From: Planctomycetaceae bacterium
GTDB taxonomy: Bacteria; Planctomycetota; Planctomycetia; Pirellulales; Pirellulaceae
Length of the DNA: 34,571 bases
Reading direction: 5' to 3'
Assembly (NCBI GenBank): GCA_027487375.1
Contig: JAIYDQ010000006.1
Location: 1 to 34,571, forward strand
Positions within the stretch are counted from its first letter, which is position 1; each line of letters opens with the position of its first letter. Both the position numbers and the translations under genes were made by a program. Positions 25 to 27,935 of this stretch are shown piece by piece. The notes beneath the pieces were generated by a model that was given only the letters and a program-made list of their open reading frames with translations, made no database searches and was not told where the DNA came from.

Positions 25-3000
25 TCAGTCGTTTTTGTTCGTCGATTTGAAATACTCGGGCGCAATCTTTCTCAGATGCTGAGCGACTTTATCGACCGCA
101 AACAATATCTGTTGGTTCGTGTGGGTCGAGTTGATGAAGAATCGAAGTCTTGTCGCAGACTCTTCCACTGCTGGGTAGAGAATGGGTTGAACGTTGACTC
201 CTGATTCAAACATTCGACGCGACAATTGCAACGCATGGAGTGAGTTACCGGTAATCACGGGTACGACTGCCGTATCACCGCTGCTGCCAGTGTTGAGGCC
301 GTGCTTCTTAGCTTCGGTCAAAAACAGTCTGGACGCTTCCTTTAGTCGAGTTACTCGCTCGGGATTCTCCTTCAACACTTTTAGCGATGCTATTGCAGCT
401 GCCGTATTTGGGGGCGACAGCCCGACGCTGAAGACAAACCCGGGAGTTGTGTACTTGAGATATTCAATAAGCGACTTTCTACCAGCGATATAGCCGCCAC
501 AGGATCCAAAGGATTTGCTCAGTGTACCCATCCAAATGTCGACGTCTCTTGGATCGACACCAAAGTGTTCGCCAATTCCGCGACCGGTCGCTCCCATCGT
601 TCCAATACTGTGGGCCTCGTCTACCATCAGCCAGCACTGATGCTTTTTCACGATTTCGATGAACTTCGGAAGATTTGGATAATCTCCGTCCATGCTGTAA
701 ACGCCTTCGATGATCACGAGAACACGTCGATAGTTAGAGCGTTGTTCTGTGAGAGCTTCGTCAAGAGCTTCCCAGTCGTTATGAGGGAATGGGCGTCTTC
801 TCGCACCAGACAGCATTGCTCCTTGCACGATACTATTGTGCGACAACGAATCGTGTAGGATTAAGTCAGGAGTATCCACGATATGACCAATGATTGTTTC
901 GTTGGTCGAATGCCCTCCGACCAGGACGATCGAATCATCGACTCCGATCCATTCAGCGATTCCCTTCTCAAGTTCGCGGTGAAGATCTTTTTCTCCACTT
1001 ACTAATCGCGACGCGGAGACGCTTGTTCCGTATTTGGCAACTGCGTCGATAACTGCTTGGCTTACTTCGGGGTCACCACTCATACCGAGGTAGTTGTAGC
1101 TTGCGAAGCTAATGTATTCTTTGCCATCGATTGTTGTCGTATCGCGAGTCAGACCTTGATGGACCGAGAAATAAGGATTCGGTACGCCCGTCATATCGAA
1201 TTGCATCATCGTTTGCTTGAGCCGACGATATTCCGGTAGTTGATCGAACTGGTATTCGTCAGGCGTAATCGTACGCGGGGCCTTCGGTGCATCGTCTTGT
1301 TCTGGCGCGAGATCCGAGATGACGCGATCTTTACCGAAAAGGCTTTCTAAAGCTTCTGCAATTTCTCGGATCGTTTCAATTTCTTGAAGCGTCTCTTCTG
1401 GTATTCGGCCTCCGAAAGCATTCTCGAGCGAGTGAGCAATCTGAAGTCGTTCTAAGCTATCGAGTCCTAAGTCGACGACAATGTTGGTGTCCAAGTCCAG
1501 TAACTTCGCTCGTTCTTGAGCGACCGCTTTGACGGCTCGTTTTACAATCTCAACAACATCGACGTCCGGGTCACGCGTCTTTTTCGCGATAACCGCGGTT
1601 GGTCGCGCGGTGGCTTTGGAAGGTCGACCGGCTAGCTGATCGACAGTTGCTGCGGCGATCATTGGGGCCGTTTGTGGTAGATCGTCTTCCCAGCTAACCC
1701 ATTTGGCGATCACACGGAGCGTGTCGTCTTTGAATCCTTGAAGACATGCGTGGCGTTGTATCTTGCCACTGGAGGTTTTCGGAAGTGATCCGCTTCGGAC
1801 AAGGATGACTGCATCTGGAGGTAGTTCGTGAACTTGAGTGACTGATTTTCGAATGGCTTGAATTACTGGTTCCCAATCATCTTCCAGGGAACGTTGCACC
1901 TCCAAAGCGATGATCAGTCGCTCACGGCCGTCGATATCATCAGAGAATGCTGCGGCAGCTGAAGACTGGATGGATTCGTGACATTCCTCGACTGTCTGTT
2001 CAATGTCTTGAGGGTAACGATTTACGCCACGGACAATAATCAGGTCCTTGACGCGACCAGCTACGAATAGTTGGCCGTCTTCGAAGAACCCAAGATCGCC
2101 CGTTCGCAAGAAAGGTCCCTGCCCATCCGCAGTCATCGCGTTAAACGTCTTCTCGGTGATATCAGGTTTTTCCCAATAGCCGGTTCCAGCGCTTGGGCTC
2201 TGAATCCAGATCTCACCGATCTGATCATCGGGCAGAATCGCGGATGTTTCCGTGTCGACGATTTCGACACGTTCATTTGGCGACGTTTGACCACAGCCAA
2301 CGAGTGCTCGCGAGTCAGGCGTGTTTCGTTCAACTGGTAGAACAACTCGAGCGGCAAGGTTACGTCCATCGAAGTGTCTTATCACGGGAACGTCTGCGTG
2401 AGGACCGGCTGTTACGATCAACGTGGTTTCCGCCATGCCATAGGTCGGAAGGTGTGACGAGTGCCGAAATCCAACCTTCTCAAACTTGCGGCTGAAGGCC
2501 TCGAGAGTACTCGCCCGTACCGGTTCAGCGCCATTAAATGCGACTCGCCACTTACTCAGATCAAGCCCCTTCATCTCCTCTTCTGTGACTTTATCAACGC
2601 AAAGCTGATAAGCAAAATTCGGTCCGCCTGACATGGTCACGTTGTACTTCGTGATGGCTCGAAGCCAACGCACCGGGCGTTGAAGAAAAGACATAGGGCT
2701 CATCAAAGCAAGTGGCAATCCCAAGAAAACAGGGCTCAGGATGCCGCCGACCAAGCCCATATCGTGGTAGGTAGGTAACCAGCTAGCGCCAATCTCGTCA
2801 TGTACCTGACCAAACAGGTAGGCGATCATCTCACAATTCCGCATGATGCACTCGTGCGTAAGGACGACACCCTTGGGCGTACCAGTAGATCCGGACGTGT
2901 ATTGCAAAACTGCAACATCTTCCGCGTCGATGGTGACTGGTGAAAACTGAATCGCCATCGATCGATCGACTCGGTCGCTTGAGATGAGCTTCATCGTCGA

Positions 3001-3465
3001 CATGTCTTCGCGAGTCGCATCGTCCTTCATGATCTGCGTGGCGGTGGTTTCCACAGTCAAACCAAATTTCGCAGCGCAGTCTTGCGCGATCCCTTGAATT
3101 CGCGACCCTTTTCGGTTGCGCCGTGGTGGGAATGCGGGGACTGCTGTGCAACCTGCATAAAGGCAACCGAAGAAACCAATGATGAAATCCAGTCCCGGCG
3201 GGTACATCAAAATTCCGCGATCACCTGGATTGGCTACTTTCAGAATCTCAACTGCCAAAGCGCGCGCAGCGTGATCCAGCTCGGCATAGCTAAGCGTTTC
3301 GTCTTGGTCCGTCTCTCCGTCGGTGAACCAGAACGCAGGGGACGTTGGCTGGACATTTGCCCAATGCCGCAAGCTATCCACCAGGTGCGTTCGCGGAAAG
3401 AACTTCGGATTCACCAGACTCAGGTCGAGTGGGCGGTGACGATTGTCAAGAACGTTGGCATTCAT
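25..3465 (-). CDS. Fatty acyl-AMP ligase / ACP / alpha-oxoamine synthase fusion protein
   Basis: The 1146-residue protein has three recognisable parts. Residues 1 to about 600 are an ANL-superfamily adenylating domain: P-loop YTSGSTGTPKG at 189-199, RTGDLG near 454, and LPKTSSGKIQR with the usual catalytic lysine at about 568. The early HDMGL segment and overall form fit the fatty acyl-AMP ligase branch. Residues about 640-715 are an acyl carrier protein, with phosphopantetheine serine S670 in GLDSLE. Residues about 740-1146 are a fold-type I PLP enzyme of the oxoamine synthase group (AONS, KBL, SPT), with DEAHS at 949-953 and Schiff-base lysine K984 in TLSKSFGS. The family logic is that a fatty acid is activated as acyl-AMP, loaded on the ACP, then condensed with an amino acid with loss of CO2. 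The amino acid and the product are unknown; a sphingoid-type base is one option. No signal peptide is seen. It is divergent from hpf. Confidence 0.9.
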   Translation of the reverse strand: MNANVLDNRHRPLDLSLVNPKFFPRTHLVDSLRHWANVQPTSPAFWFTDGETDQDETLSYAELDHAARALAVEILKVANPGDRGILMYPPGLDFIIGFFGCLYAGCTAVPAFPPRRNRKGSRIQGIAQDCAAKFGLTVETTATQIMKDDATREDMSTMKLISSDRVDRSMAIQFSPVTIDAEDVAVLQYTSGSTGTPKGVVLTHECIMRNCEMIAYLFGQVHDEIGASWLPTYHDMGLVGGILSPVFLGLPLALMSPMSFLQRPVRWLRAITKYNVTMSGGPNFAYQLCVDKVTEEEMKGLDLSKWRVAFNGAEPVRASTLEAFSRKFEKVGFRHSSHLPTYGMAETTLIVTAGPHADVPVIRHFDGRNLAARVVLPVERNTPDSRALVGCGQTSPNERVEIVDTETSAILPDDQIGEIWIQSPSAGTGYWEKPDITEKTFNAMTADGQGPFLRTGDLGFFEDGQLFVAGRVKDLIIVRGVNRYPQDIEQTVEECHESIQSSAAAAFSDDIDGRERLIIALEVQRSLEDDWEPVIQAIRKSVTQVHELPPDAVILVRSGSLPKTSSGKIQRHACLQGFKDDTLRVIAKWVSWEDDLPQTAPMIAAATVDQLAGRPSKATARPTAVIAKKTRDPDVDVVEIVKRAVKAVAQERAKLLDLDTNIVVDLGLDSLERLQIAHSLENAFGGRIPEETLQEIETIREIAEALESLFGKDRVISDLAPEQDDAPKAPRTITPDEYQFDQLPEYRRLKQTMMQFDMTGVPNPYFSVHQGLTRDTTTIDGKEYISFASYNYLGMSGDPEVSQAVIDAVAKYGTSVSASRLVSGEKDLHRELEKGIAEWIGVDDSIVLVGGHSTNETIIGHIVDTPDLILHDSLSHNSIVQGAMLSGARRRPFPHNDWEALDEALTEQRSNYRRVLVIIEGVYSMDGDYPNLPKFIEIVKKHQCWLMVDEAHSIGTMGATGRGIGEHFGVDPRDVDIWMGTLSKSFGSCGGYIAGRKSLIEYLKYTTPGFVFSVGLSPPNTAAAIASLKVLKENPERVTRLKEASRLFLTEAKKHGLNTGSSGDTAVVPVITGNSLHALQLSRRMFESGVNVQPILYPAVEESATRLRFFINSTHTNQQILFAVDKVAQHLRKIAPEYFKSTNKND

Positions 3466-11183: not shown

Positions 11184-12155
11184 TTATTCGTTAGCGATCC
11201 CTTCACGAAACGGATCGCGCGGATCAAAAACGAGATTTACTCGAGCCGTTACAAATGCTTCTCCGGTAATCGTGGGGCTGACTGAACCTTTGGCTTTGTC
11301 ATCCCATACAAAGCTGCCGATGAAATGGCTCCCTATGATACTCCGCTGAAACAGTGTTTCGCCTTCCAACAAAAGACCGTCACCTGCCAAGCATGCGAGT
11401 CGAGCGCTCGTGCCAGTCCCGCATGGAGATCGATCGTATGCTTTTCCTGGGCATAGTACAAAGTTCTTGGAATAGATCGTCGGCTTGGTTATTAATTCGG
11501 GCTCATTTGCATGAGAAGTGTCTGGGGCAAGCAAGATGATGTGATCCACATCAGGGAATCCACTTTCGTTGATGGCGATCCGAATTTTCCAGCTGACATC
11601 AGTCAGTTGATCAAGGTTTTTTTGATCCAAGCAAAACGGATGATCGTTTACCAAGTAAAACCAGTTTCCGCCCCAGGCTACATCGCCTTTCACTTTTCCA
11701 ACGCCAGAGATTTGGAGTTCAACATCATTCGCTATTCGAAATGATGGGACATTGGTTATCGAGACCGATCCATTTGGATGTAGTTCGGCGGAGACAATGC
11801 CTACTGGAGTTTCAATGTGATGAACTCCAACGCCGATCTTCCCGAGATAGGCAAGTGTTGCGATTAATCCAATGGTTCCGTGACCGCACATACCAATAAA
11901 CTTGACGTTATCAAAAAAGATAACTCCGGCAACGCACGATTCGTTACTCGGTTTCACAAGCAGCGCGCCAACCAAGTAGTCCGTTCCTCTCGGCTCGTTG
12001 ATGACGGATCGCCGAAAGCAATCGTGATGCTGTCGGAGGATTTCCAATTGCTGGGCGACGCTGCCCGTGCCTAAGTCAGGTCCTCCTGAGAGAACCACTC
12101 GAGTTGGCTCACCACCCGTATGCGAATCAATAACTTGCACTTCAGTGTTGGCCAT
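11184..12155 (-). CDS. Proline racemase family protein, probable 4-hydroxyproline 2-epimerase
   Basis: The 323-residue protein has the two catalytic cysteines of the family: C90 in GMCGHGT and C245 in DRSPCGTGTSA. Together with SHTGGEPTRVV near the N-terminus these favour 4-hydroxyproline epimerase over trans-3-hydroxyproline dehydratase, which lacks one of the cysteines. The enzyme would convert trans-4-hydroxy-L-proline to cis-4-hydroxy-D-proline in the cytoplasm. It lies 64 bases after a DUF885 gene that follows a DapA-family gene. In known hydroxyproline pathways a DapA-type deaminase acts two steps after the epimerase. The D-hydroxyproline oxidase and the semialdehyde dehydrogenase are not in this window. 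Proline racemase activity remains possible. Confidence 0.85.
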   Translation of the reverse strand: MANTEVQVIDSHTGGEPTRVVLSGGPDLGTGSVAQQLEILRQHHDCFRRSVINEPRGTDYLVGALLVKPSNESCVAGVIFFDNVKFIGMCGHGTIGLIATLAYLGKIGVGVHHIETPVGIVSAELHPNGSVSITNVPSFRIANDVELQISGVGKVKGDVAWGGNWFYLVNDHPFCLDQKNLDQLTDVSWKIRIAINESGFPDVDHIILLAPDTSHANEPELITKPTIYSKNFVLCPGKAYDRSPCGTGTSARLACLAGDGLLLEGETLFQRSIIGSHFIGSFVWDDKAKGSVSPTITGEAFVTARVNLVFDPRDPFREGIANE

Positions 12156-12219
12156 TCACTTACGGTTTTCGATGTTCAAGTGGACGAGGTTTCAATATGT
12201 GAAGAATTGATTGTTGGAA

Positions 12220-14010
12220 CTAGTTCGTTGCATTTCGTGGTTGCGTCAATCGTTCACGGACCAATTCCGGAAGGTATTTCACTGGTATCGAGCCGTTTTC
12301 GAGGACAGCTTCGTGATAGCGACCGAGATCAAATGCATCGCCTTGCTCGCGTTGTATCATTTCACGAAGACGATAAAAGGCCATCCTACCGGCGAAATAC
12401 GTGCTCAACTGAACCGAGCTTTGCTTGGCTCGGACAATCTTCAGGAGCGCCTCGCCGTCCGATTGATAGGCCTCGCGAGTAAGAAAGTTGAAGGCTTCTT
12501 GATCGGTCATTTGCGTGCGATGCATCTTGTGATCAAGAATCGCATTACCAACAGCGCGGAGATAAAACTTCAGCTGATTCAACCGCAACGGTAATGAGCC
12601 ATCTCCATAACCTTGGTCCAGCATCATTTGCTCGGTATACACCGCCCATCCTTCAATATAAGTTCCCGATTGAAGCACGCGACGAATTAAAGAGGGGGTT
12701 CGATTCGAGTATTGTAGTTGCACGTAATGCCCGGGGTAAGCTTCGTGAATCGAAAGGATCTGCAGCATGTGATTGTTGTACTCTTCTAAAAAGCTATCAA
12801 CACGTTTTTGATTCCACTGTTTGGGTGGAGGGCTGATCGCGTAGTAGCTGAAACCGTCGGGGTCTAGTGGTAGGGCAGAATCCAAGTATGCGAGCGAGTT
12901 ACCTCTTCGGAATTCTGGCATCTCGATAACTTGGCAACGATCCTTTTCCGGGAGTCGAAGAATATCACGAGCGGTTATGAAGTCTTGAATGTCTTTCACT
13001 GATTTTCTAGCATCAGCAATCAGTGCAGAGGGTTGGCTATGTTCCTGACTGACCGCTGATACGACTGCTGCGACCGTCTTGCGTCGTCCTTCCGCGTTAT
13101 CTGCCGGGAGAGGCCGACCGGGGTAATACCGACTCCATAGTTGCCGAGCCACAACGTACATTTCATTTTGAACACGCTCGAACTCGATTAGCGCATCGCG
13201 AAGTACTTGGTCTGCTGAAAGTTGAACATCTAGCACTAGCTGCAGTTTTTGGTCAAATTTGTCTTTCCCGAGTCGCCATTCTCCTTTTGCTTTAGGCAAA
13301 ACATCGTTCTCCAAAAATAGCTGATAACTCTTAAGCGATTCGATTGCTTGCGGAGTAGATTGACGCATCAAGTTGCGTAGTGACTCGACACCGATTAGCT
13401 CGTAGATTCCATTTTCATAAAAGTCGATCGCTCCTTTGTTTTGCGAGATGGCCGTTTCAAGAATTGATCTTGGTGGATTTACAATAGTTGCCCGAGCCGT
13501 CCCAACGATTCGCGGAATTTCTTGAATCCTCGCAATTGCATTGGTAACGTTTTTTTCAAGTGGCAATGTAGATTGCGCAAGTAAAAGATATACGCTGTCA
13601 TTAATGTAGTTTCCGTACACGCGAGGGTCTTCTGCGAACGGGTTTGTATTCTCGTTTAGCCATATATTTCGCTTTAGTTCATCACGCCATATTTCATAGT
13701 CAATCTTCTCGACTCTGTTCAGCGAATCATATTGCACATGTTGTTCGAGCTTCTGCAGTTGATGACGAAAATGGTCAAGCCATTTTTGACGGGCCTCGGG
13801 AGACACGTCATCCAGCTTGCCATCGAAACGATGATCCCCAAGCAAGGTTGCGTCGAGCGGTCGAAGCGCGAAGCACTCATCAAGATATGTTTGAAATAAT
13901 GTGGTGAGCTTTACGCTTTCGCCTTGACCCAAACAAGCGTTTGCTAAAAACACATTTGCCAGAAGCGTTAAGAATAGGACGCCATGAAAGCTGAGCTTGT
14001 GCATAATCAC
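12220..14010 (-). CDS. Exported DUF885 family protein, putative metallopeptidase
   Basis: The 596-residue protein has a signal peptide (FHGVLFLTLLANVFLANACLGQ) and the DUF885 fold marks: HEAYPGHY at about 422-429 and EGWAVYTE at about 453-460. In this family the two histidines and the downstream glutamate are thought to bind zinc, and peptidase activity has been suggested. A cysteine at position 26 could be lipidated, but the preceding residues are not a clear lipobox. The gene sits between the DapA-family gene (39 bases upstream) and the hydroxyproline epimerase (64 bases downstream). A role in freeing hydroxyproline from peptides is a reasonable inference. Confidence 0.85.
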   Translation of the reverse strand: MIMHKLSFHGVLFLTLLANVFLANACLGQGESVKLTTLFQTYLDECFALRPLDATLLGDHRFDGKLDDVSPEARQKWLDHFRHQLQKLEQHVQYDSLNRVEKIDYEIWRDELKRNIWLNENTNPFAEDPRVYGNYINDSVYLLLAQSTLPLEKNVTNAIARIQEIPRIVGTARATIVNPPRSILETAISQNKGAIDFYENGIYELIGVESLRNLMRQSTPQAIESLKSYQLFLENDVLPKAKGEWRLGKDKFDQKLQLVLDVQLSADQVLRDALIEFERVQNEMYVVARQLWSRYYPGRPLPADNAEGRRKTVAAVVSAVSQEHSQPSALIADARKSVKDIQDFITARDILRLPEKDRCQVIEMPEFRRGNSLAYLDSALPLDPDGFSYYAISPPPKQWNQKRVDSFLEEYNNHMLQILSIHEAYPGHYVQLQYSNRTPSLIRRVLQSGTYIEGWAVYTEQMMLDQGYGDGSLPLRLNQLKFYLRAVGNAILDHKMHRTQMTDQEAFNFLTREAYQSDGEALLKIVRAKQSSVQLSTYFAGRMAFYRLREMIQREQGDAFDLGRYHEAVLENGSIPVKYLPELVRERLTQPRNATN

Positions 14011-14049
14011 CTTCAGAAAGTTGGGCGAATCGGCTTGGCGATCACCAAA

Positions 14050-14964
14050 TTACTTTATTAGTTTGGGTTTCGATTCAATTCCGTCATGAATGATCTTAAG
14101 TATTCGAGTTCTTTCCTCACCTGTTAGGATCATACGAGGCGCACGCACCCACTCGGATCCTAGTTTGCACTCTTGAACCATGAGTTTAATGTACTGAATA
14201 AATTTTGGATGGACATCCAGGTGAAGCAAAGGAGTAAACCAACGATACCATTCGCGTGCTTCTTCCCATCTTCCCTGTCGCGTAAGATCCCAGAGGTGTT
14301 GGTTCTCGGCTGGAAAGGCAATACCACTACCTGCTACCCAGCCATCGATCCCAAGGATTGATGCTTCAAGCATCAGGTTATCGACACCCGTGAAGAGTGC
14401 GTATCGATCTCCGACAGTGTTTCGCAAATCGGTAATGCGTCGCGTGTCGCCGGAGCTTTCCTTGATCGCTACTAGGTTTGGGAGGTCCGCTAGTTTCTCA
14501 AACATAGCAGGAGTAATGTCATTAGCATAACTGATAGGATTGTTGTAAACCATAATCGGTAAAGCTGTCGATTTTGCAACCGATCGAAAGTGCGTCAGTG
14601 TCTCTTCCGGGTCGGCACGATACAGCATGGCCGGGAGCAGCATTGCGCCGTTTGCGCCCAGCTTTTCTATGTCATGCATAAATCGGATGGCTTCAGCGGT
14701 GCTTGTTTCGGCAACACCACTCAGTAAGGGTATGCGACCGTTTACCACTTGCACCATCGCCTTTACGACAATTCTTTTTTCTTCAGGAGTCATCGGTTGG
14801 TTTTCGCCCAGCGATCCTAAACAAATCAAACCGGTGATACCCGATTGAATCAAGATTTCAGCGTGCGCTTCTGTTGCAGCTATATCGATTGAACCATCTC
14901 TGTGCATCTGAGTCGTAATCGCGGGAAAAACACCTTGCCATTTCGGATTCGTACTGGATCTCAT
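14050..14964 (-). CDS. DapA-family lyase, possibly 4-hydroxy-1-pyrroline-2-carboxylate deaminase
   Basis: The 304-residue TIM-barrel protein is of the dihydrodipicolinate synthase/N-acetylneuraminate lyase family. The Schiff-base lysine K168 lies in VAIKESSGD and the catalytic tyrosine Y140 in MVYNNP. The substrate loop is GSLGEN rather than the usual GTTGE. The YNNP signature and the neighbouring hydroxyproline epimerase point to the deaminase of the hydroxyproline pathway, which makes alpha-ketoglutarate semialdehyde. Dihydrodipicolinate synthase or another aldolase is still possible. It differs clearly from the second DapA-family gene at 25231-26145, which has sialic-acid lyase signatures. 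It lies 165 bases after the sulfatase gene. Confidence 0.82.
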   Translation of the reverse strand: MRSSTNPKWQGVFPAITTQMHRDGSIDIAATEAHAEILIQSGITGLICLGSLGENQPMTPEEKRIVVKAMVQVVNGRIPLLSGVAETSTAEAIRFMHDIEKLGANGAMLLPAMLYRADPEETLTHFRSVAKSTALPIMVYNNPISYANDITPAMFEKLADLPNLVAIKESSGDTRRITDLRNTVGDRYALFTGVDNLMLEASILGIDGWVAGSGIAFPAENQHLWDLTRQGRWEEAREWYRWFTPLLHLDVHPKFIQYIKLMVQECKLGSEWVRAPRMILTGEERTRILKIIHDGIESKPKLIK

Positions 14965-15129: not shown

Positions 15130-16599
15130 CTACGGATTCGCGACTTTTGGAAATTGCCGCCTGAGTTGTACCTCGGCTTCGAGAAGAATTGAAGCCGCAG
15201 ATGCATCGTCGATTAGGTTGCGAGTTTCTGCAGGTTCGTCGGCTTCTGAATAAAGTTCTCGAGCAATTGTCTCGCCCGATTTCCAATCCCGCCACTCGGT
15301 ATAGCGAGCGTTCGATGTACGCACACTAACTCCCATTGATTCGGGTTGCTTGGATGGAGTTCGATCATAGTAAGCAGGTCGAGGGTGCTGGGTAAAGGCA
15401 GCCTGCTTAACAGATACAGATGGATCTCGGAGTACCGGCACAAGACTAGTACCTTCTAACCCAGGCGATGTCGGGAGTCCACAAAGCTCGACGAGAGTCG
15501 GGAACAGATCGACTAATTCTGCAAGGGACGAAGTTTGTTGACCTTTGTGCGTAATGCCGGGGGCGTGGACAATCATGGGGACGCGGGCATCGAGTTCGAA
15601 GTTCGAAGTTTTTCCCCAGAGAGTGTGTTCGCCAATGTGATAGCCGTGGTCGCTTATAAAAGTCACGATCGTATTGTCAGCGACCCCGCTTTTTTCTAAT
15701 GCATCTAATACCTTGCCAACCTGAGCATCCATGTAGCTGATATTAGCGAAGTATCCGTGGCGCATCTCCGCGGCTTGTTCGGCAGAAGGTACCTTTTGTC
15801 GAGCAACCGGTCCGAGCACTTCTGTGCTTTCGTGAAACGCAACAGCCGGGGCTCCGTCAGGTCGTTGGGAAGTCAGTTTCGGTAACTGGTTGCGATCGTA
15901 CATGTCCCAGTAGCGCTTTGGAGCGTTGAACTGAGCGTGGGGCTTCCAGAATCCGACGGCAAGAAAGAAAGGACGATCTTTGACTTCATTCAGAACACGA
16001 ATTGCTTCCGCAGCAACACGGCCATCGTAATATGCCTCATCAGGAACATCTCGGCACTCGCAGATTCCAACCTCGCCATAGCCAAAGCCGGACGTTGTTT
16101 TTGCAAAATTGGGGGGCATTGGGCCGGTCACTTTCGCAATGTCCTTTCCATGGTTAGCAAAATGGAGAAACTCGGGTGCGCTCCAGGATGTCGGGTCACC
16201 TTCTACCTTTGTATGCCAGTTGTGAAAGATTTTTCCCGTGCATCGTGTGTCGTAGCCGTGCTGCTTGAACCAAAGCGGTATCGTAATTACGTCAGGGTTT
16301 GGTTCTCGAAAGTGTATGCCGTTGTTCCATATTCTCAGTGTGTCTGGACGCCGACCGGTAAGTAGTGAGGACCGCGACGGGTTGCAAACTGCTTGTTGGC
16401 AATAGGCACGATCAAATTGCATACTTCGCTTTGCAAGGCGATCGAGATTTGGTGTCTTTGCCGCCGAACCATAGCTTCCCAACTCAGTTCGCAAGTCATC
16501 TGCCATGATGAACAGCACGTTCGGCTTTTTACTTTCGTTAGCGAGAGAGCACACACCAAGAAAGGAAACGAAGGTTAGCGCAATAGCGAGATATCTCAT
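15130..16599 (-). CDS. Secreted sulfatase, iduronate-2-sulfatase-like
   Basis: The 489-residue protein starts with a signal peptide ending near LGVCSLANESKKP. The sulfatase signature CNPSRSSLLTGRRP has cysteine C72 as the site converted to formylglycine. PNVLFIMADD gives the metal-binding aspartates and ISDHGYHIGEHTLWGK the further active-site residues. The overall pattern resembles the iduronate-2-sulfatase-like group (IWNNGIHFREPNPD). It would remove sulfate esters from sulfated glycans outside the cytoplasm; the sugar cannot be told. It is the first gene of the minus-strand run leading into the hydroxyproline genes. A formylglycine-generating enzyme must be encoded elsewhere, since none is in the window. 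Confidence 0.92.
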   Translation of the reverse strand: MRYLAIALTFVSFLGVCSLANESKKPNVLFIMADDLRTELGSYGSAAKTPNLDRLAKRSMQFDRAYCQQAVCNPSRSSLLTGRRPDTLRIWNNGIHFREPNPDVITIPLWFKQHGYDTRCTGKIFHNWHTKVEGDPTSWSAPEFLHFANHGKDIAKVTGPMPPNFAKTTSGFGYGEVGICECRDVPDEAYYDGRVAAEAIRVLNEVKDRPFFLAVGFWKPHAQFNAPKRYWDMYDRNQLPKLTSQRPDGAPAVAFHESTEVLGPVARQKVPSAEQAAEMRHGYFANISYMDAQVGKVLDALEKSGVADNTIVTFISDHGYHIGEHTLWGKTSNFELDARVPMIVHAPGITHKGQQTSSLAELVDLFPTLVELCGLPTSPGLEGTSLVPVLRDPSVSVKQAAFTQHPRPAYYDRTPSKQPESMGVSVRTSNARYTEWRDWKSGETIARELYSEADEPAETRNLIDDASAASILLEAEVQLRRQFPKVANP

Positions 16600-20341: not shown

Positions 20342-21727
20342 ATGCCAATCGCCTCGCCACTTTTAAATCCGCCCGTAGCAGATGATTCGCAGCTTGAGGG
20401 AGTCGTTGGGACTCATGCGGATCTGGGCGTGATTGGGTCGCCTTCGCTAGTTCATGGCGAGACCCCATCTGAGGACCTTGAAGAGTCTGGTGCTCAGGAA
20501 CCCTCTTTTAGTGCCCTCATGTGGTTGCGCCCCAATTTGCGGGCGAGCATGCTTGATGGCGGCTTTTTTGGGCTGACATTAGGATTGGGCGAAACGTTTT
20601 TGCCAGCTTTTGCCTTAGCCATTGGGTTAGGTGAGGTGGTTTCTGGTCTTGTGACTAGTTTGCCAATCTTTTTTGGTGGGATTGTTCAGCTGGTCTCGTT
20701 GCGAGCTTTATCTTGGACGGGTTCTTACAAGCGATGGATCGTTGCCGGGGTCACGCTTCAAGCGATGACTTTCTTGCCACTGATTGCGGCTGCAATTTAC
20801 GGTTCTATATCCGCTTGGGCTTTCTTTCTGATTGCATCGATCTACTGGGGATCCGGGATGGCAGCGGGGCCTGCTTGGAATGCTTGGATCGGACACGTCG
20901 TACCACAACCGATACGAGCTAATTTTTTTGCCAAACGAACGCGTGTCATCCAGTTGGCAACGCTGGTTGGTTTTTTGGTCGGCGGTGGTTTTTTACAGTA
21001 CACCAAAGGCATCGATGCAGTGCTGTGGGGATTCGCGACTTTGTTTGTCGTGGCAGGGTTGTCACGATTCGCTTGTTCGATTTATCTGATAAAGCATCGA
21101 ACATCCAAAGCCGACGACGATGTCCACCCTGAGCCTGCACGACTGTTGGAAACATGGCGAGGAATTAGTTCTAAGAGCCGCAGTCTGATCATTTACCTGA
21201 TATGCATGCAGGCCTGCGTGCAATTTTCTGGGCCCTACTTCGTGCCTTATATCATTAAGCAATTGAACTACAGCTATGCGGCTTTCGCAACCATCATTGC
21301 CGCTGCTTTAGTGGCTCGTGTTTTGGCGATGAATCTCTGGGGTAGGGTTGCACAGAAGTACGGTACGGATCGATTGCTTGTAATCGGAGGAATTGGGCTT
21401 TTGCCTTTAGCGTCCCTTTGGATTCTGTCGCCTTCGCTTTGGTGGTTGATCGTTGTTCAAATGCTGAGCGGGTTCCTTTGGTCCGCTTATGAGCTTGCGT
21501 TTTTCTTAATGTTTATGGAGGAACTCCCCCAAAAGCGACGAGCCACAGCGCTAACAATATTCAACTTCGGGAACTCGTTAACATGGTGTCTTGGCGCATT
21601 GGCCGGTGGATGGTGGATCGCACATTTTGGAACATCGATCGAATCCTATCACGGCATTTTCGTGATTTCATCTTTATCCCGGGTCCTATGCGTTGGGCTG
21701 CTTTGGCGCGTCGTTGCTAAACGCTAA
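20342..21727 (+). CDS. Major facilitator superfamily (MFS) transporter
   Basis: The 461-residue protein has an acidic soluble N-terminal tail of about 55 residues, then about 11-12 hydrophobic helices in two halves separated by a polar loop (HRTSKADDDVHPEPARLLETW). Features such as AKRTRVIQLATLVGFLVGG and the helix-rich second half fit MFS permeases. The substrate is unknown. The gene converges on the sialic acid operon, which has no transporter of its own in the window, so sialic acid uptake is conceivable, but there is no direct sign of this and it is not an obvious NanT. Confidence 0.82.
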   Translation: MPIASPLLNPPVADDSQLEGVVGTHADLGVIGSPSLVHGETPSEDLEESGAQEPSFSALMWLRPNLRASMLDGGFFGLTLGLGETFLPAFALAIGLGEVVSGLVTSLPIFFGGIVQLVSLRALSWTGSYKRWIVAGVTLQAMTFLPLIAAAIYGSISAWAFFLIASIYWGSGMAAGPAWNAWIGHVVPQPIRANFFAKRTRVIQLATLVGFLVGGGFLQYTKGIDAVLWGFATLFVVAGLSRFACSIYLIKHRTSKADDDVHPEPARLLETWRGISSKSRSLIIYLICMQACVQFSGPYFVPYIIKQLNYSYAAFATIIAAALVARVLAMNLWGRVAQKYGTDRLLVIGGIGLLPLASLWILSPSLWWLIVVQMLSGFLWSAYELAFFLMFMEELPQKRRATALTIFNFGNSLTWCLGALAGGWWIAHFGTSIESYHGIFVISSLSRVLCVGLLWRVVAKR

Positions 21728-22324: not shown

Positions 22325-23479
22325 TTAGGGCGTGGTAATCCAGTCAAGATTTAAGCGAGCACAATCGATGTCATTATCGTCTTCGTATAGACACAGCACT
22401 GTGCCGTCTTGTAGTACGGCAAGATCGGAGTAGGCGGCTTTTCCTGGATCAATTGTCTTGCTGATGGACCAGGACTTACCGTCATCGCGACTGAGTTTGA
22501 TGCAAAGATTTTCGCGTTTGCCTCTGCCTTTCGGGATTTCCTTTCCTTGCGCATCGATTGGCCGCGTGTGTGGATTCGAGAATAGCAATACGCCCGAAGG
22601 ATGCCATAGCAAGCTTGCCATACAGCGTGGTTCCCACAACTCGGGGTGAAACTCAGGCTTGCTCCATGAGGTCGCTCCGTCAGCACTGATCGTGACGAGC
22701 TTACGATTCGGTTGAGATTCATTTCGAGAGATCATCATCACACGTCCATCAGCGAGTGTTGCGAGGATAGACTCGTTGGGGTTTCCGAATTCCCCTTCAT
22801 TGGGAATAGCGATATCTCCGGCTTGCCATGTCTTGCCGTGATCATCACTGTAGATCGTGCCGCAGGCTGATGGTGCGTGATCACCGATTCCGCCAAATGC
22901 TATCCAGATCGGAACCACAAGCCGCCCATTCTTGAGCTGGATACCGTGGCCGGGGCCAGTCGCGATAACTTTCCAATTGTAAGTGTTACGAAACGTCTCA
23001 AACGAAGAGGTTATCTCGACGGCATTGCTCCAAGTTTGGCCGTCATCGACGCTGCGCATCGAAAAGCATCGTGCATAATTGACGCAATAAAGGAACTCGA
23101 TTGCTCCTGTTTCGCGATCGATGATCGCCACTGGGTTATTCACTGTTTGCTCATGCTCGCCACCCGTTACTTTACGTGGGTTGCCTTCGATGCGAGGACC
23201 GTCATGGGCGATCCGTTTCGATTCTTCCCAAGTCTTCCCGCCATCTGTGCTGCGACGCAAATGGATCTCGATCTCGCCCCAATCGGAGCTATTGTTCTTC
23301 CGTGCTTCGGAGTATGCGAGCACAGTTCCCTTGGGGGTGACAACAATACCTGGGATGCGATACCGTGCGATCCCATTTAGCCCTTGCGGGAAGACGGGTG
23401 TTGTTTCAAGCAGAGGCTCCGCGTAAGCAACATTCCAAAAGAAAGTTACGAGAAGAAGCGACGTTAGCAAGTGTTTCAT
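22325..23479 (-). CDS. nanH: Exported sialidase (neuraminidase, BNR/Asp-box family)
   Basis: The 384-residue protein has a signal peptide cleaved near AYAEPLLE. It has the sialidase YRIPGIV motif with R41, the likely first arginine of the carboxylate-binding triad. Five Asp boxes are visible: STDGGKTW, SVDDGQTW, SDDHGKTW, a degenerate SADGATSW, and SRDDGKSW. This is the six-bladed propeller of the GH33 type, and D66 in SSDWGEIEI is a candidate acid/base. It should release terminal sialic acid from glycans outside the cytoplasm. It is the last gene of the gntR-nanM-nanA operon, 42 bases after the FAD oxidoreductase gene. Intramolecular trans-sialidase activity cannot be excluded. Confidence 0.9.
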   Translation of the reverse strand: MKHLLTSLLLVTFFWNVAYAEPLLETTPVFPQGLNGIARYRIPGIVVTPKGTVLAYSEARKNNSSDWGEIEIHLRRSTDGGKTWEESKRIAHDGPRIEGNPRKVTGGEHEQTVNNPVAIIDRETGAIEFLYCVNYARCFSMRSVDDGQTWSNAVEITSSFETFRNTYNWKVIATGPGHGIQLKNGRLVVPIWIAFGGIGDHAPSACGTIYSDDHGKTWQAGDIAIPNEGEFGNPNESILATLADGRVMMISRNESQPNRKLVTISADGATSWSKPEFHPELWEPRCMASLLWHPSGVLLFSNPHTRPIDAQGKEIPKGRGKRENLCIKLSRDDGKSWSISKTIDPGKAAYSDLAVLQDGTVLCLYEDDNDIDCARLNLDWITTP

Positions 23480-23521
23480 AGAAGAATCTCGTGTCGTGTG
23501 AAGAGGAATAAAAGATCTCGA

Positions 23522-25240
23522 TTACTTTGTTGGCTTCCACTGCAAAACTTGGCCGTCTGCGGAGAGCTTGGACCGTAGCTTTTCGTAATCAAGTGACTGC
23601 ACCGGTAGGTCTTCGTCGATCGACAAGCAAGCGGCGGTCGCTGCACTTTGGCTAGTGATCATCAAAACTGGTTCCATGCGGATGCTGGCGAAGGCCGTAT
23701 GGCTCGCGCTGAGTGCGAAGGTTACGAATAAGTTCTCGCATTCGCTCTGAAACGGTACGATGGCATCGTATCCGATGTTGTATGGACCGAATCCACCGCG
23801 GGAACTAGCGAGCTTGCCTTCGCGACAAACGGAACCGTCCTTTATGATGCGTCGAATCTCATGCACATCGGTACCATAGCTGCCAAGGCCGATCGACTTG
23901 GTCGCGATTTTCCTGCCAAAAGTGTGATGTTCGGTCATGACGAGATCGCTTACCATACGACGGGCCTCGCGAATATAGAGTTGATGTGGCCAACCGCCTG
24001 TTTCAGGAAACTCGTCACTTGGTAAACCGAACCGCTGCATATCCTCACGAACTTTCCTAGGCACGCGTTGATCGGTTGCTAGGAAGTGAAGAAGCCCACG
24101 ATGGTAGTTCTCGTGCGCTTTGGCGATTAACTCACGTTCGGCATAGCTCGCACTTGGCCATGCGTGGCTCGCGCCTGGTAAGTTGCTGCCAAAAGTTGCC
24201 GTATTGAAATCCCATTTATTGTTGGGAAGCGGATCATGTTTGGTGAACCAACGCAAGTCCATATCATCCCCGTTATGCAAGCATGCTTGAATAAACCGCC
24301 CCACAATCTCGTATTGTTTGGGATCATAATCGGCCGGCGGGACGATTGGTAAACGATCGGAAGCTGTAGTCAGGCAAAGTCGAAAGCAGTAGGCCTGTAC
24401 GCCAGGAGCAGGATCACCTGGCTTGCCTGGCCCTTCAAGTTCGATCAGCGGCAGCAAACCACTTTCAGGACGACCGACGATAACATAGGGATCAAGTGGA
24501 AAGTCTCGATCCCAGACACCTTGGCCTCCAATGACCCGTCCGTTGGCTAATGGCACGAGATGTCCAGAACGCGGTTTGTACTTTGCGTCATACTGGATTC
24601 CATTGAGCGACTCGCCGTACTTATCATTGCCTTCTCGCATTAAAGTGAAGCTTACACCAGCCTTCGCCATCAAGTCCCCTTCATACGTGCAGTCGATAAA
24701 CATCTTCGCACGAATCGTATCGCCGTTCTCCAAATTGATTGCTGTGATACGCGGACTATTCTTGGTGACCGACGCTAACTTAGCATCACGCAGCACCGTC
24801 ACGCTTGCTTCAGCAACCATTTCATTAAAGACGCGCTCCGCTTGATGCGGTTCAATTGCATACGCACCTCCCGTTGCTGGGCCCCCTTCGTTTTGGAATG
24901 GCCGATCCCATTCGAGCTTCTTCCCGTACTTACCTACAAGTCGCGTGAAGTACTCGCGAGCGATACCGCCTACACTGCGCGGATCACCAATGTCAACCGC
25001 ACTGAGACCGCCGCTTGTCATGCCGCCAAGATGACGCCCCGGTTCCGCAAGGATGACATGCTTACCCATCCGCGAGGCTTGCACTGCCGCCACCACGCCT
25101 CCTGAAGTGCCACCGTAGATGCAGACATCGTATTCATAAACTCGTGCGAAGGTCTGCTGATGGAACGTCGTAATCAAAAGGACGATGAGCATGTATTGGA
25201 AATACATTACAAAGAATGAAGGATGAACTTTCATAACCAT
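23522..25240 (-). CDS. Exported FAD-dependent oxidoreductase (PF12831-type)
   Basis: The 572-residue protein starts with a hydrophobic signal segment (about residues 9-33), then the FAD-binding motif YGGTSGGVVAA (42-52) and EPGRHLGGMTSGGLS, typical of the FAD_oxidored family sometimes annotated as xanthan lyase. The C-terminal FVTFALSASHTAFASIRMEP also fits. The annotated ATG overlaps the nanA stop by ten bases, and a second ATG two codons later gives an ATGA overlap, so the two are translationally coupled. The substrate is unknown. Its position between sialic acid lyase and sialidase suggests that it oxidises a sialoglycan, a sialic acid form or a linked sugar in the periplasm-like space. 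Confidence 0.85.
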   Translation of the reverse strand: MVMKVHPSFFVMYFQYMLIVLLITTFHQQTFARVYEYDVCIYGGTSGGVVAAVQASRMGKHVILAEPGRHLGGMTSGGLSAVDIGDPRSVGGIAREYFTRLVGKYGKKLEWDRPFQNEGGPATGGAYAIEPHQAERVFNEMVAEASVTVLRDAKLASVTKNSPRITAINLENGDTIRAKMFIDCTYEGDLMAKAGVSFTLMREGNDKYGESLNGIQYDAKYKPRSGHLVPLANGRVIGGQGVWDRDFPLDPYVIVGRPESGLLPLIELEGPGKPGDPAPGVQAYCFRLCLTTASDRLPIVPPADYDPKQYEIVGRFIQACLHNGDDMDLRWFTKHDPLPNNKWDFNTATFGSNLPGASHAWPSASYAERELIAKAHENYHRGLLHFLATDQRVPRKVREDMQRFGLPSDEFPETGGWPHQLYIREARRMVSDLVMTEHHTFGRKIATKSIGLGSYGTDVHEIRRIIKDGSVCREGKLASSRGGFGPYNIGYDAIVPFQSECENLFVTFALSASHTAFASIRMEPVLMITSQSAATAACLSIDEDLPVQSLDYEKLRSKLSADGQVLQWKPTK

Positions 25241-26145
25241 GAGAAGAATCCCATTTGATCGAGATCGCGATGAAGCTCTGCTTGTTGATCGTTGGTAAGG
25301 CCAGCAATAGGCAATCGCGGCGGCCCGACGTCGACACCGCGAAGCTTCATGACAGTCTTTGCGGCAGCCATGTAACCATACGAGGCAAGAAGCTTAATGA
25401 GTCGAACGGCTCGCATTTGCTCATCGCGAGCGGCTTGCAGATCGTTTACCGCGAAGGCTTGCATGACTCGGCGATAAATCGGGGCAGCAAAGTTATAGCT
25501 GCTACCAACTGCTCCTATTGCACCGAGCGACAATGCTGGAAGCAGCATCTCATCGAACCCGAAAGGTATGTCGAACTTGCTGTTGGAATGACGGCGACAA
25601 AGTTGATACTCCATCAAGTTGCTGCTCGTAAACTTGATGCCGGAAAGGTTGGGGATTCGAGGTGTGGCTGCTTCGAGAAACTCTGAAGGCCAAATGTTGA
25701 TTCCAGTCATCGTCGGAATCTCGTAATAGTAGAAAGGCAATTCTGGTGCAGCCGAGGCGATCTTAGACATGCTCTCGACAAGAGTTTGAACATTTCCAGG
25801 CTTGAAGTACGAGGGTGCGACGGCGCTGACCGCCGCAACGCCGAGTTGCTGAGCTTGCTTAGCGAGGCTGACCGAATCGTCCAAGCAATTGGAGCCTACA
25901 TGCACGATTAATTGGAGGTCCGTCCCTCGAACAACTCGACTCCAGCGATCCGCAAGCTGCAGTCGTTCATCAAGGGTAAGTGAGCTGCTTTCTCCGGTCG
26001 TGCCGCCAATGAATGCATATCGCACACCGTCAGAATGAAGCATTGCAAATTGCTGCTGGACGATGCTGAGGTTGAGTGACCCATCCGCGTGAAAGGGAGT
26101 ATGAGTCGCAGCAACGAGACCGTGGATTCGGAATGACGATGACAT
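25231..26145 (-). CDS. nanA: N-acetylneuraminate lyase (DapA family)
   Basis: The 304-residue TIM-barrel protein carries GGTTGES at 47-53, Schiff-base lysine K171 in SGIKFTSSN, and the catalytic tyrosine in YYYEIPTMTG (about Y141). The EIP-x-TG segment and FGFDEMLLPALSLGAIGAVGS are typical of sialic acid lyases rather than dihydrodipicolinate synthases. It cleaves N-acetylneuraminate to N-acetylmannosamine and pyruvate in the cytoplasm. It lacks a signal peptide, unlike its operon partners. It lies 42 bases after the mutarotase gene and overlaps the FAD oxidoreductase start. The enzymes for later steps (nanE, nanK, nagA, nagB) are not in the window. Confidence 0.9.
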   Translation of the reverse strand: MSSSFRIHGLVAATHTPFHADGSLNLSIVQQQFAMLHSDGVRYAFIGGTTGESSSLTLDERLQLADRWSRVVRGTDLQLIVHVGSNCLDDSVSLAKQAQQLGVAAVSAVAPSYFKPGNVQTLVESMSKIASAAPELPFYYYEIPTMTGINIWPSEFLEAATPRIPNLSGIKFTSSNLMEYQLCRRHSNSKFDIPFGFDEMLLPALSLGAIGAVGSSYNFAAPIYRRVMQAFAVNDLQAARDEQMRAVRLIKLLASYGYMAAAKTVMKLRGVDVGPPRLPIAGLTNDQQAELHRDLDQMGFFSWL

Positions 26146-26187
26146 AGTAAATTCAATTTATAGTTGATGATTCGAGACCGAATGGAT

Positions 26188-27255
26188 TCACTGAAGCGGA
26201 TTCAATGGAAGGCTCCAAACTTCCGGCGTGCGGACGCGTGGTCGTACTTCTCCGCTTGGAACTACGTAGTCATTCTGCCAGACAACTGTGGATGCAGTTG
26301 CCCTTGAGAACGGACCGTTATCTTGCACCGTCCATGAATCACTTGCCACGTCGTAAACAAGCCCATCGCGAGGAAACCCAGGGTGAGCATTTATGGGGTT
26401 GAATGCTACGTTCACGCCGTCATCGCCGCTGTAGACAATCAGCTTAGAACCAATCGATGCGGCAGGAGAAGGTGCCGCGACTGCTGATCGAGGGAGATCG
26501 GATATTCGTGTCCATCCCTCGTTGGATTTATATCGATATGCATCGCGAAGATAAGTTCGCACGGGCTTTTGCGCTGAATTCGAGGAAAGGCTGGTGCCAC
26601 TGAATAGATAGAATGCGTCATGACTTGCACCTGCAACGGCAAGCATTCGTTCGGGGCCGGGCCATGTTGGTAGCTCCTTCCAAGCGAGTTCCTTCGCGTC
26701 GAGATCAAGCGACCAAAAGTTGTGCATGGCGGTTGTAGAAGGCGGCATTTCTATGCCACCGGCGATGTAAACAATTCGTTGCACTAAAGCTCCACAAGTG
26801 TTTGCACATGGGATCGGCAATGAAGGAAGCGGTTTTGTGATAATCCTTCCATCAACCCACTCTAAACAGAAACTGTCGGAGTAGTGACGAGTCGCATCAC
26901 TTCCTCCAAAGCACATGAGACTATTGTTGGCGCTGATAGCGAGCCCGTAGCCTCTTGGCCTTGGTAATCGAAACTCCGATTTCCATTTGCCATTAGGTGT
27001 ATCGAGAACAAAGATTGTGTCGTGCCATACTTTTTGAAAGACATCCGACCATTTGTCTTTGGGGATGTTTGCACCCCCCGCGACAATCAATGCTCCGTTG
27101 CTAGTACCCGCAAACATACCTGCAAAGCCCTCATCGTTCGGTAAAGATGGCAGCTTCGACCAACCAGATGAAACAGGCTCAGCGGCGACTATCTCAATCG
27201 ATATCGTCACCACAAGAGTAACCGCGTAAAGAGTCTGGGCTTCAAAAAATCTCAT
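26188..27255 (-). CDS. nanM: Kelch-repeat cyclically permuted mutarotase, N-acetylneuraminate epimerase (NanM-like)
   Basis: The 355-residue protein has a signal peptide ending near IVAAEP, then kelch-type blades recognisable by GG-containing motifs (LIVAGGANIPKDK, CFGGSDATRHY, YIAGGIEMPPS, LIVYSGDDGVN). This pattern is the permuted mutarotase family, whose E. coli member NanM speeds the alpha-to-beta change of free sialic acid. It would act outside the cytoplasm on sialic acid released by the sialidase. It is the second gene of the operon, 62 bases after the GntR regulator and 42 before nanA. Confidence 0.88.
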   Translation of the reverse strand: MRFFEAQTLYAVTLVVTISIEIVAAEPVSSGWSKLPSLPNDEGFAGMFAGTSNGALIVAGGANIPKDKWSDVFQKVWHDTIFVLDTPNGKWKSEFRLPRPRGYGLAISANNSLMCFGGSDATRHYSDSFCLEWVDGRIITKPLPSLPIPCANTCGALVQRIVYIAGGIEMPPSTTAMHNFWSLDLDAKELAWKELPTWPGPERMLAVAGASHDAFYLFSGTSLSSNSAQKPVRTYLRDAYRYKSNEGWTRISDLPRSAVAAPSPAASIGSKLIVYSGDDGVNVAFNPINAHPGFPRDGLVYDVASDSWTVQDNGPFSRATASTVVWQNDYVVPSGEVRPRVRTPEVWSLPLNPLQ

Positions 27256-27317
27256 CCTTTTCGGATTCCGTTATGAAAGTGCAGTAGAAACCGCATGCAT
27301 TAGATTGAGACTGGTTG

Positions 27318-27935
27318 TCATCGCGAATCTCCAAAGAGTGTATCTTTACCGGATCGGATGTGTCGACGAATCATCGAGTCGGCTCCTTCTGGTGATGCAT
27401 TGCGTAGTTCGCTAAGGAGTTTAACGTGCCGATTGTAGGTGGCTTTCCGAGTAGGTGCGATTACCGAAATCTGATGAAACATACTTAGCCTCACAACACG
27501 ATCGAAACAACTGATCAGTGCTTCACAATCAGCGAGCGCAACGAGTGCTTGGTGAAATTCAAAGTCTTCCGACCAAATCGGATGACCTGAATCGGCCGCC
27601 TTATCGGCCTTCGTCGCAAGTAATCTTAGTTTCGGAAAGGCCTTTTTAATCTTCTCGCCACAGTAAATCCGCGCACATTGGCATTCAATCGCTTCGCGCA
27701 GCAAGAGTTGACCGCGAACATCTTCAATACTCGGCGAAACAACAAATGTTCCTTGTCGATGACGTGTCGTCAAAAAGCCTTCGTAGGATAATCGCTGCAC
27801 TGCGTCCGATACTGGAATCAGACTTACCGCGAGCTGATCAGCAATCTTGCGACGATCCAACAAGTCACCGGGGCGAATCTCGCGTTCGAGCAACTGACTG
27901 AGAATGTGCTGATAAACCTGCTCGGACAAAATCAT
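27318..27935 (-). CDS. GntR family transcriptional regulator with FCD-type domain
   Basis: The 205-residue protein has an N-terminal winged helix (residues about 1-65: REIRPGDLLDRRKIADQLAV, then VQRLSYEGFLTTRHRQGTFVV). The helical C-terminal domain has FCD-type histidines (FEFHQAL, RHVKLLSEL, IRRHIRSG) that often bind a metal and ligand. It is the first gene of the sialic acid operon, and its promoter carries a palindrome over the -10 box, so it probably represses its own operon until sialic acid or a breakdown product binds. The effector is inferred from context only. Confidence 0.88.
   Translation of the reverse strand: MILSEQVYQHILSQLLEREIRPGDLLDRRKIADQLAVSLIPVSDAVQRLSYEGFLTTRHRQGTFVVSPSIEDVRGQLLLREAIECQCARIYCGEKIKKAFPKLRLLATKADKAADSGHPIWSEDFEFHQALVALADCEALISCFDRVVRLSMFHQISVIAPTRKATYNRHVKLLSELRNASPEGADSMIRRHIRSGKDTLFGDSR

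Follow-up and report, generated by a model that had tools for sequence, protein, structure and literature searches.

What does an exported flavin enzyme do in an operon for the use of sialic acids? Accounts of how bacteria use sialic acid list hydrolysis, import, cleavage by a lyase and epimerase/kinase steps, and the known redox exception is an anhydro conversion that depends on nicotinamide adenine dinucleotide (NAD). The question is raised by a stretch of 34,571 nucleotides from a Planctomycetaceae bacterium (contig JAIYDQ010000006.1, assembly GCA_027487375.1), here called the window, in which a gene for a flavin adenine dinucleotide (FAD) oxidoreductase of family PF12831 lies between those of a sialate lyase and a sialidase. 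On balance, our comparative analysis leans slightly towards a distinct family of secreted flavin oxidoreductases, found in the Planctomycetes–Verrucomicrobia–Chlamydiae (PVC) group, that partners GH33-type sialidases outside the cytoplasm. The operon and the genes discussed with it are as follows.

27318..27935, minus strand: GntR/FCD regulator, NanR-like by position (Pfam GntR 55.8 bits, FCD 48.1 bits)
26188..27255, minus strand: NanM-like kelch protein of the sialate mutarotase family, with an N-terminal signal sequence (Pfam NANM 129 bits, cut-off 45)
25231..26145, minus strand: N-acetylneuraminate lyase (NAL) of the NPL type (DHDPS family; the best solved relatives are NALs)
23522..25240, minus strand: exported FAD oxidoreductase (PF12831, 310.7 bits, residues 38-559)
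24499..24588, minus strand: family-specific insert of the FAD protein, about residues 218-247 (49-row alignment, orthologs against paralogs)
22325..23479, minus strand: exported GH33 sialidase with a complete catalytic set (BNR_2 116.9 bits; 1EUR, E = 1e-33)
20342..21727, plus strand: major facilitator superfamily (MFS) transporter adjoining the operon (Pfam MFS_1)

All five operon open reading frames (ORFs) are on the minus strand, and the arrangement given in the initial annotation, a same-strand operon with one overlap, is confirmed, with spacers of 62, 42 and 42 bases. The FAD protein starts inside the last codons of the lyase, where the two ORFs overlap by 10 bases (ATGGTTATGA), or by 4 bases (ATGA) with the second ATG as start, so that translational coupling is plausible. 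The regulator matches the NCBIfam NanR subfamily weakly across its FCD domain, under the cut-off. Sec-type signal sequences, judged by eye, stand at the N-termini of the flavoprotein, the sialidase and the NanM-like protein. Export of the flavoprotein, claimed earlier for this locus, is consistent among its orthologs, whose N-termini are signal sequences that in almost all cases lack twin arginines; twin-arginine export was rejected, as a single one of the examined orthologs with a separate gene has the motif.

The flavoprotein matches PF12831 over the entire profile (310.7 bits against a cut-off of 27, positions 1-416 of 416). When one genome per species was scanned, it fell into an ortholog group of 66-77% identity from Verrucomicrobiota, Planctomycetota and Lentisphaerota, cleanly apart from paralogs at 35-48% identity, mostly of Bacteroidota. 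The orthologs share an insert at about residues 218-247, gapped in the paralogs, in which R235, W243, D244, R245 and D246 are invariant, which favours a single function shared by these proteins and is not a pointer to a named substrate. Literature searches on PF12831, golvesin fusions, RraA with sialic acid and FAD oxidoreductases with sialidases returned no description of the family.

The evidence that ties the family to sialidases comes from its neighbourhoods. A tblastn search of flanking DNA found a sialidase-like gene in 18 of 43 ortholog loci and in none of 40 loci of the 35-48% paralogs (p = 1e-6). Five orthologs (L084, L099, L102, L105 and L109) carry an N-terminal sialidase and the FAD_oxidored module in one polypeptide, with a Golvesin_C domain also present in four of the five, and the Roseiconus ortholog (L089) instead carries a BNR domain at its C-terminal end. 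The N-terminal fusion requires about 5 changes on the FAD tree and the linked state about 11, and the association is therefore recurrent and was not inherited once. Gene clusters such as FAD-RraA-NanM-MFS-NAL in Chthoniobacter flavus (L086), whose NanM-like protein between the RraA and MFS genes is 62% identical to that of the window, and RraA-NanM-BNR-FAD-FAD2-BNR (L200) follow the same theme. The initial annotation had named random association across genomes as a result that would refute it; across PVC genomes, fused proteins included, the association with sialidases is non-random, and these comparisons give good support to its core claim that the enzyme is exported and works on the same material as its neighbours.

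Could the gene nevertheless be a chance neighbour, encoding a common secreted planctomycete flavoprotein and brought among the sialic acid genes by accident? PF12831 has many members, with about a dozen substantial copies in the window genome, and an operon of the same genus does without the FAD gene. The recurrent fusions, the contrast of 18/43 with 0/40 loci and the genome co-occurrence described below strongly disfavour this explanation, which we regard as very improbable. The examined flanks of the window genome's other PF12831 copies hold no sialidase or nan gene.

Several further genes recur around the family. At L060:6722-8569, L061:8290-10278, L179, L195 and L200, a second PF12831 paralog of about 30% identity comes after the FAD gene or forms part of a NAL-MFS-NanM-RraA cluster, and more than one flavoenzyme may therefore belong to the pathway. 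In genome G009 (L060:8514-13126) genes for a planctomycete cytochrome c/PSD1 protein and a DUF1501 protein come after the FAD pair and offer a possible electron acceptor, although such genes are very common in planctomycetes. Two protein families of about 500 residues, lacking a Pfam match in the members scanned, adjoin or are fused with the FAD gene (one at L086, L095, L098, L106, L107, L111 and L116; the other, C9, at L081, L093 and L096), and a beta-helix family lies beside it or is fused to it at L086, L094 and L101.

At the level of whole genomes, the flavoprotein goes together with the sialidase and with an aldolase of RraA type. A close sialidase is present in 27 of the 37 genomes that bear an FAD ortholog and in 10 of 57 relatives that lack the FAD gene; for an ortholog of the RraA-like aldolase the counts are 25 of 37 and 2 of 57. 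As the two groups differ in phylogeny, the test was repeated within 97 relatives of Chthoniobacter flavus, where all three genomes with the FAD gene carry RraA (5 of 97 overall, p = 7e-5) and all three carry a sialidase (16 of 97 overall, p = 0.004). RraA lies near sialidase, NanM, MFS or lyase genes in L080, L086, L104, L165, L179, L194-L196 and L200; the draft of the window genome (87% complete) yielded no RraA ortholog. The link to nanA suggested by the initial annotation did not hold up in this comparison, the lyase being found in 22 of 37 ortholog genomes and 26 of 57 relatives (p = 0.21). Replacement of NAL by RraA was considered and rejected, since the lyase is about as frequent with RraA (15/25) as without it (7/12).

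Which sugar is involved can be approached through the sialidases and the lyase. The window sialidase has all six GH33 catalytic residues (R41, D66, E236, R252, R322 and Y350), the counterparts of R68, D92, E260, R276, R342 and Y370 in the Micromonospora viridifaciens sialidase 1EUR, with the Asp one column off in the automatic alignment. In most sialidases fused or paired with the FAD module, however, the first carboxylate-binding Arg is replaced by His (HIPG), while the Asp, Glu, Tyr and other two Arg are retained. This holds for the fused GH33 domains of L099, L102, L105 and L109, which keep the other five residues; the first Arg is retained in the sialidases of the window, L061, L084 and L108. 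The linked substrate may therefore not be N-acetylneuraminic acid (Neu5Ac), and the substitution suggests that some members of the family deal with a compound that resembles sialic acid and is recognised differently.

The window lyase, for its part, is closest among solved structures to the NALs 6h4e and 5afd and human NPL 6arh (E values of 1e-59 to 1e-72), and its motifs GIKFT, YYYEIP, GTTGE and GFDE hold the Schiff-base Lys and a NAL-like active site. It scores under the NCBIfam nanA equivalog cut-offs (156.8 against 281 bits and 136.7 against 382 bits), which appear to fit the E. coli-type clade, and is therefore of the NPL type and not of the E. coli type. This agrees with those parts of Almagro-Moreno and Boyd (2009, PMC2693436) that place the NanA of planctomycetes, Verrucomicrobia and Bacteroidetes beside that of eukaryotes.

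These findings bear on an explanation that overlaps with a sialidase partnership and differs in substrate, namely that the enzyme serves a different nonulosonic acid (Kdn, Kdo or a pseudaminic/legionaminic type) from bacterial or algal polymers, the window's Arg-type sialidase and NAL having been recruited secondarily. The prevalence of His in linked and fused sialidases, the frequent direct pairing of His-type sialidases with RraA and the mostly environmental or sludge origin of the host genomes are in its favour, but the window sialidase is canonical and an NPL-type lyase and NanM are operonic at several loci; we consider it rather unlikely. The His-type GH33 subfamily itself (L080, L086, L094, L099, L102, L104-L107, L109, L160, L161, L163-L165, L167, L169 and L178) is spread over Verrucomicrobiota, Planctomycetota and Lentisphaerota, and its genes often have one for an RraA-like aldolase nearby.

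What chemistry might the flavoprotein perform? Its AlphaFold model (pLDDT, the predicted local distance difference test score, 85.6) has a GGTSGG motif at residue 43 and a Rossmann domain predicted to bind FAD, and the flavin core matches the flavin domains of Thi4, TrxR, GidA and urocanate reductase (Z 16-18), resembling many flavoproteins with two dinucleotide-binding folds. Neither Foldseek nor VIA-align found a solved protein that fits the entire chain well, and a sequence search of the PDB gave weak Rossmann matches only, with no close solved structure. Since the whole-chain template modelling (TM) scores in Foldseek are about 0.2-0.3 and mainly the core is matched, no function was taken from the fold. 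The conserved H70 is a possible covalent FAD carrier.

One candidate is a redox-neutral conversion, in which the enzyme would be an extracellular flavin counterpart of NanOx/YjhC, turning the sialidase products 2,7-anhydro-Neu5Ac or Neu5Ac2en (the 2,3-ene) into Neu5Ac via a 4-keto intermediate. YjhC runs such chemistry with NAD regenerated in the reaction (PMC7315737), a sialidase fusion would channel the sialidase product, and the lyase would then need plain Neu5Ac. Yet the window sialidase is without a demonstrated intramolecular trans-sialidase feature, the FAD family is unrelated by profile to the Gfo/Idh/MocA enzymes (no such match in Pfam or NCBIfam), and the co-occurring RraA would be left unexplained, and we judge this conversion unlikely. 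Net oxidation of a sialic or nonulosonic acid is a serious possibility, though we stop short of calling it probable.

A number of observations weigh against the proposed partnership with sialidases as a whole. More than half of the ortholog loci are without a sialidase in the examined flank (some contigs are short), many of the linked sialidases carry the His substitution, and a genome of the same genus has a sialidase-NanM-lyase operon without the FAD gene. The 37 and 57 genomes are imperfectly matched by phylogeny, and the lyase is not significantly enriched. PF12831, BNR and sulfatase genes are abundant in PVC genomes; sulfatases, beta-helix proteins and other BNR genes stand at several ortholog loci and thus suggest a broader glycan role. 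The enzyme might oxidise the sugar to which the sialic acid is attached, or a different sugar in that glycan, such as N-acetylgalactosamine, galactose or a sulfated sugar, as the sulfatase, BNR and beta-helix genes adjoining many orthologs and the loci without a sialidase would allow. Recurrent fusion specifically to GH33-like domains speaks against this, and the strong co-occurrence with RraA fits an alpha-keto acid more easily, so that we hold it improbable; the sulfatase and beta-helix neighbours at many orthologs keep both this and the non-Neu5Ac explanation in play.

Returning to the sialidase partnership, we think it reasonably probable, judging from gene context and sequence, that the flavoprotein acts with GH33 on a sialoglycan or on the released sialic or nonulosonic acid, and we infer its substrate to be the sialic acid moiety. 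The flavoprotein would dehydrogenate a sialic or related nonulosonic acid bound or just released by the sialidase, with a bound FAD because NAD is unavailable outside the cytoplasm. The oxidised product would enter the cell by import and be split by the NPL-type lyase to pyruvate and an amino sugar, a cleavage that the RraA-like aldolase may also perform in many relatives. More tentatively still, and with the odds somewhat against it, the secreted FAD family, the His-type GH33 of altered carboxylate recognition and the RraA-type aldolase may together form a so far unrecognised pathway by which PVC bacteria oxidise sialic or other nonulosonic acids.

How the gene came to be in this genome is suggested by its distribution. 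In a set of 60 relatives that includes the window genome, close orthologs (72% identity) occur in only two others, G009 and G048, and the gene is thus rare inside the window's own family; paralogs at 45-50% are present in many of the 60, and about half have NPL-type lyases without a close FAD ortholog nearby. The window FAD gene nests within Prosthecobacter-type Verrucomicrobiota (Shimodaira–Hasegawa-like approximate likelihood ratio support 99), apart from the planctomycete orthologs, including that of its own family, and was therefore probably acquired laterally. The window lyase and sialidase are 69-70% and 73% identical to proteins of a Prosthecobacter metagenome-assembled genome, while among the 12 relatives searched the nearest counterparts of the flanking tex gene are in the family to which the window belongs. 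Lateral acquisition of the operon, or of much of it, is the most likely history by these comparisons. As the operon appears to be lateral and its counterpart in the same genus does without the FAD gene, the enzyme would be an accessory and not an essential step.

Elsewhere in the window, the adjoining MFS gene found no support as a nan transporter, and tblastn gave no match between it and the MFS protein from the nan operon of Chthoniobacter. Consecutive genes at 11184-14964 on the minus strand encode a 4-hydroxyproline epimerase-like protein, a DUF885 protein and a second DHDPS-family protein, possibly a cluster for the use of hydroxyproline (collagen peptides), with a sulfatase at 15130-16599. 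The second DHDPS-family protein was rejected as another sialate lyase, being a separate paralog of 24% identity. At 25-3465 (minus strand), a fusion of AMP-binding, phosphopantetheine-carrier and class I/II aminotransferase domains resembles an alpha-oxoamine synthase assembly protein.

If the proposal is true, a secreted, sialidase-fused flavin enzyme adds a redox step outside the cytoplasm and points to sialic or nonulosonic acids beyond the reach of ordinary sialidases and lyases; it is plausible that the step is so far undescribed. The family is well defined, with a clear signature, natural fusions and members in the named isolates Chthoniobacter flavus, Roseiconus nitratireducens and Rhodopirellula sp. 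SM50.

Among known systems, the nearest is the catabolism based on NPL-type NanA, which the relevant parts of Almagro-Moreno and Boyd (2009, PMC2693436) already record in Bacteroidetes, Verrucomicrobia and Planctomycetes. The window's lyase, sialidase and NanM-like mutarotase form a standard nan gene set of that kind; those parts show no flavoprotein or RraA partner, and a sialidase-flavoprotein fusion appeared in none of the papers searched. NanOx and YjhC, which convert 2,7-anhydro-Neu5Ac and Neu5Ac2en (PMC7535918, PMC7315737), are likewise oxidoreductases of sialic acid operons and handle sialidase products, but they use NAD and act after import, whereas the window enzyme is an FAD-type PF12831 protein with predicted export. 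The flavin glycoside 3-oxidases of the GMC superfamily, which oxidise intact glycosides before bond cleavage (PMC10646112), have no sialidase partner and belong to a different flavoprotein family. Within PF12831 at large, finally, membership is clear, and the ortholog group stands apart by its own conserved insert and its linkage to GH33.

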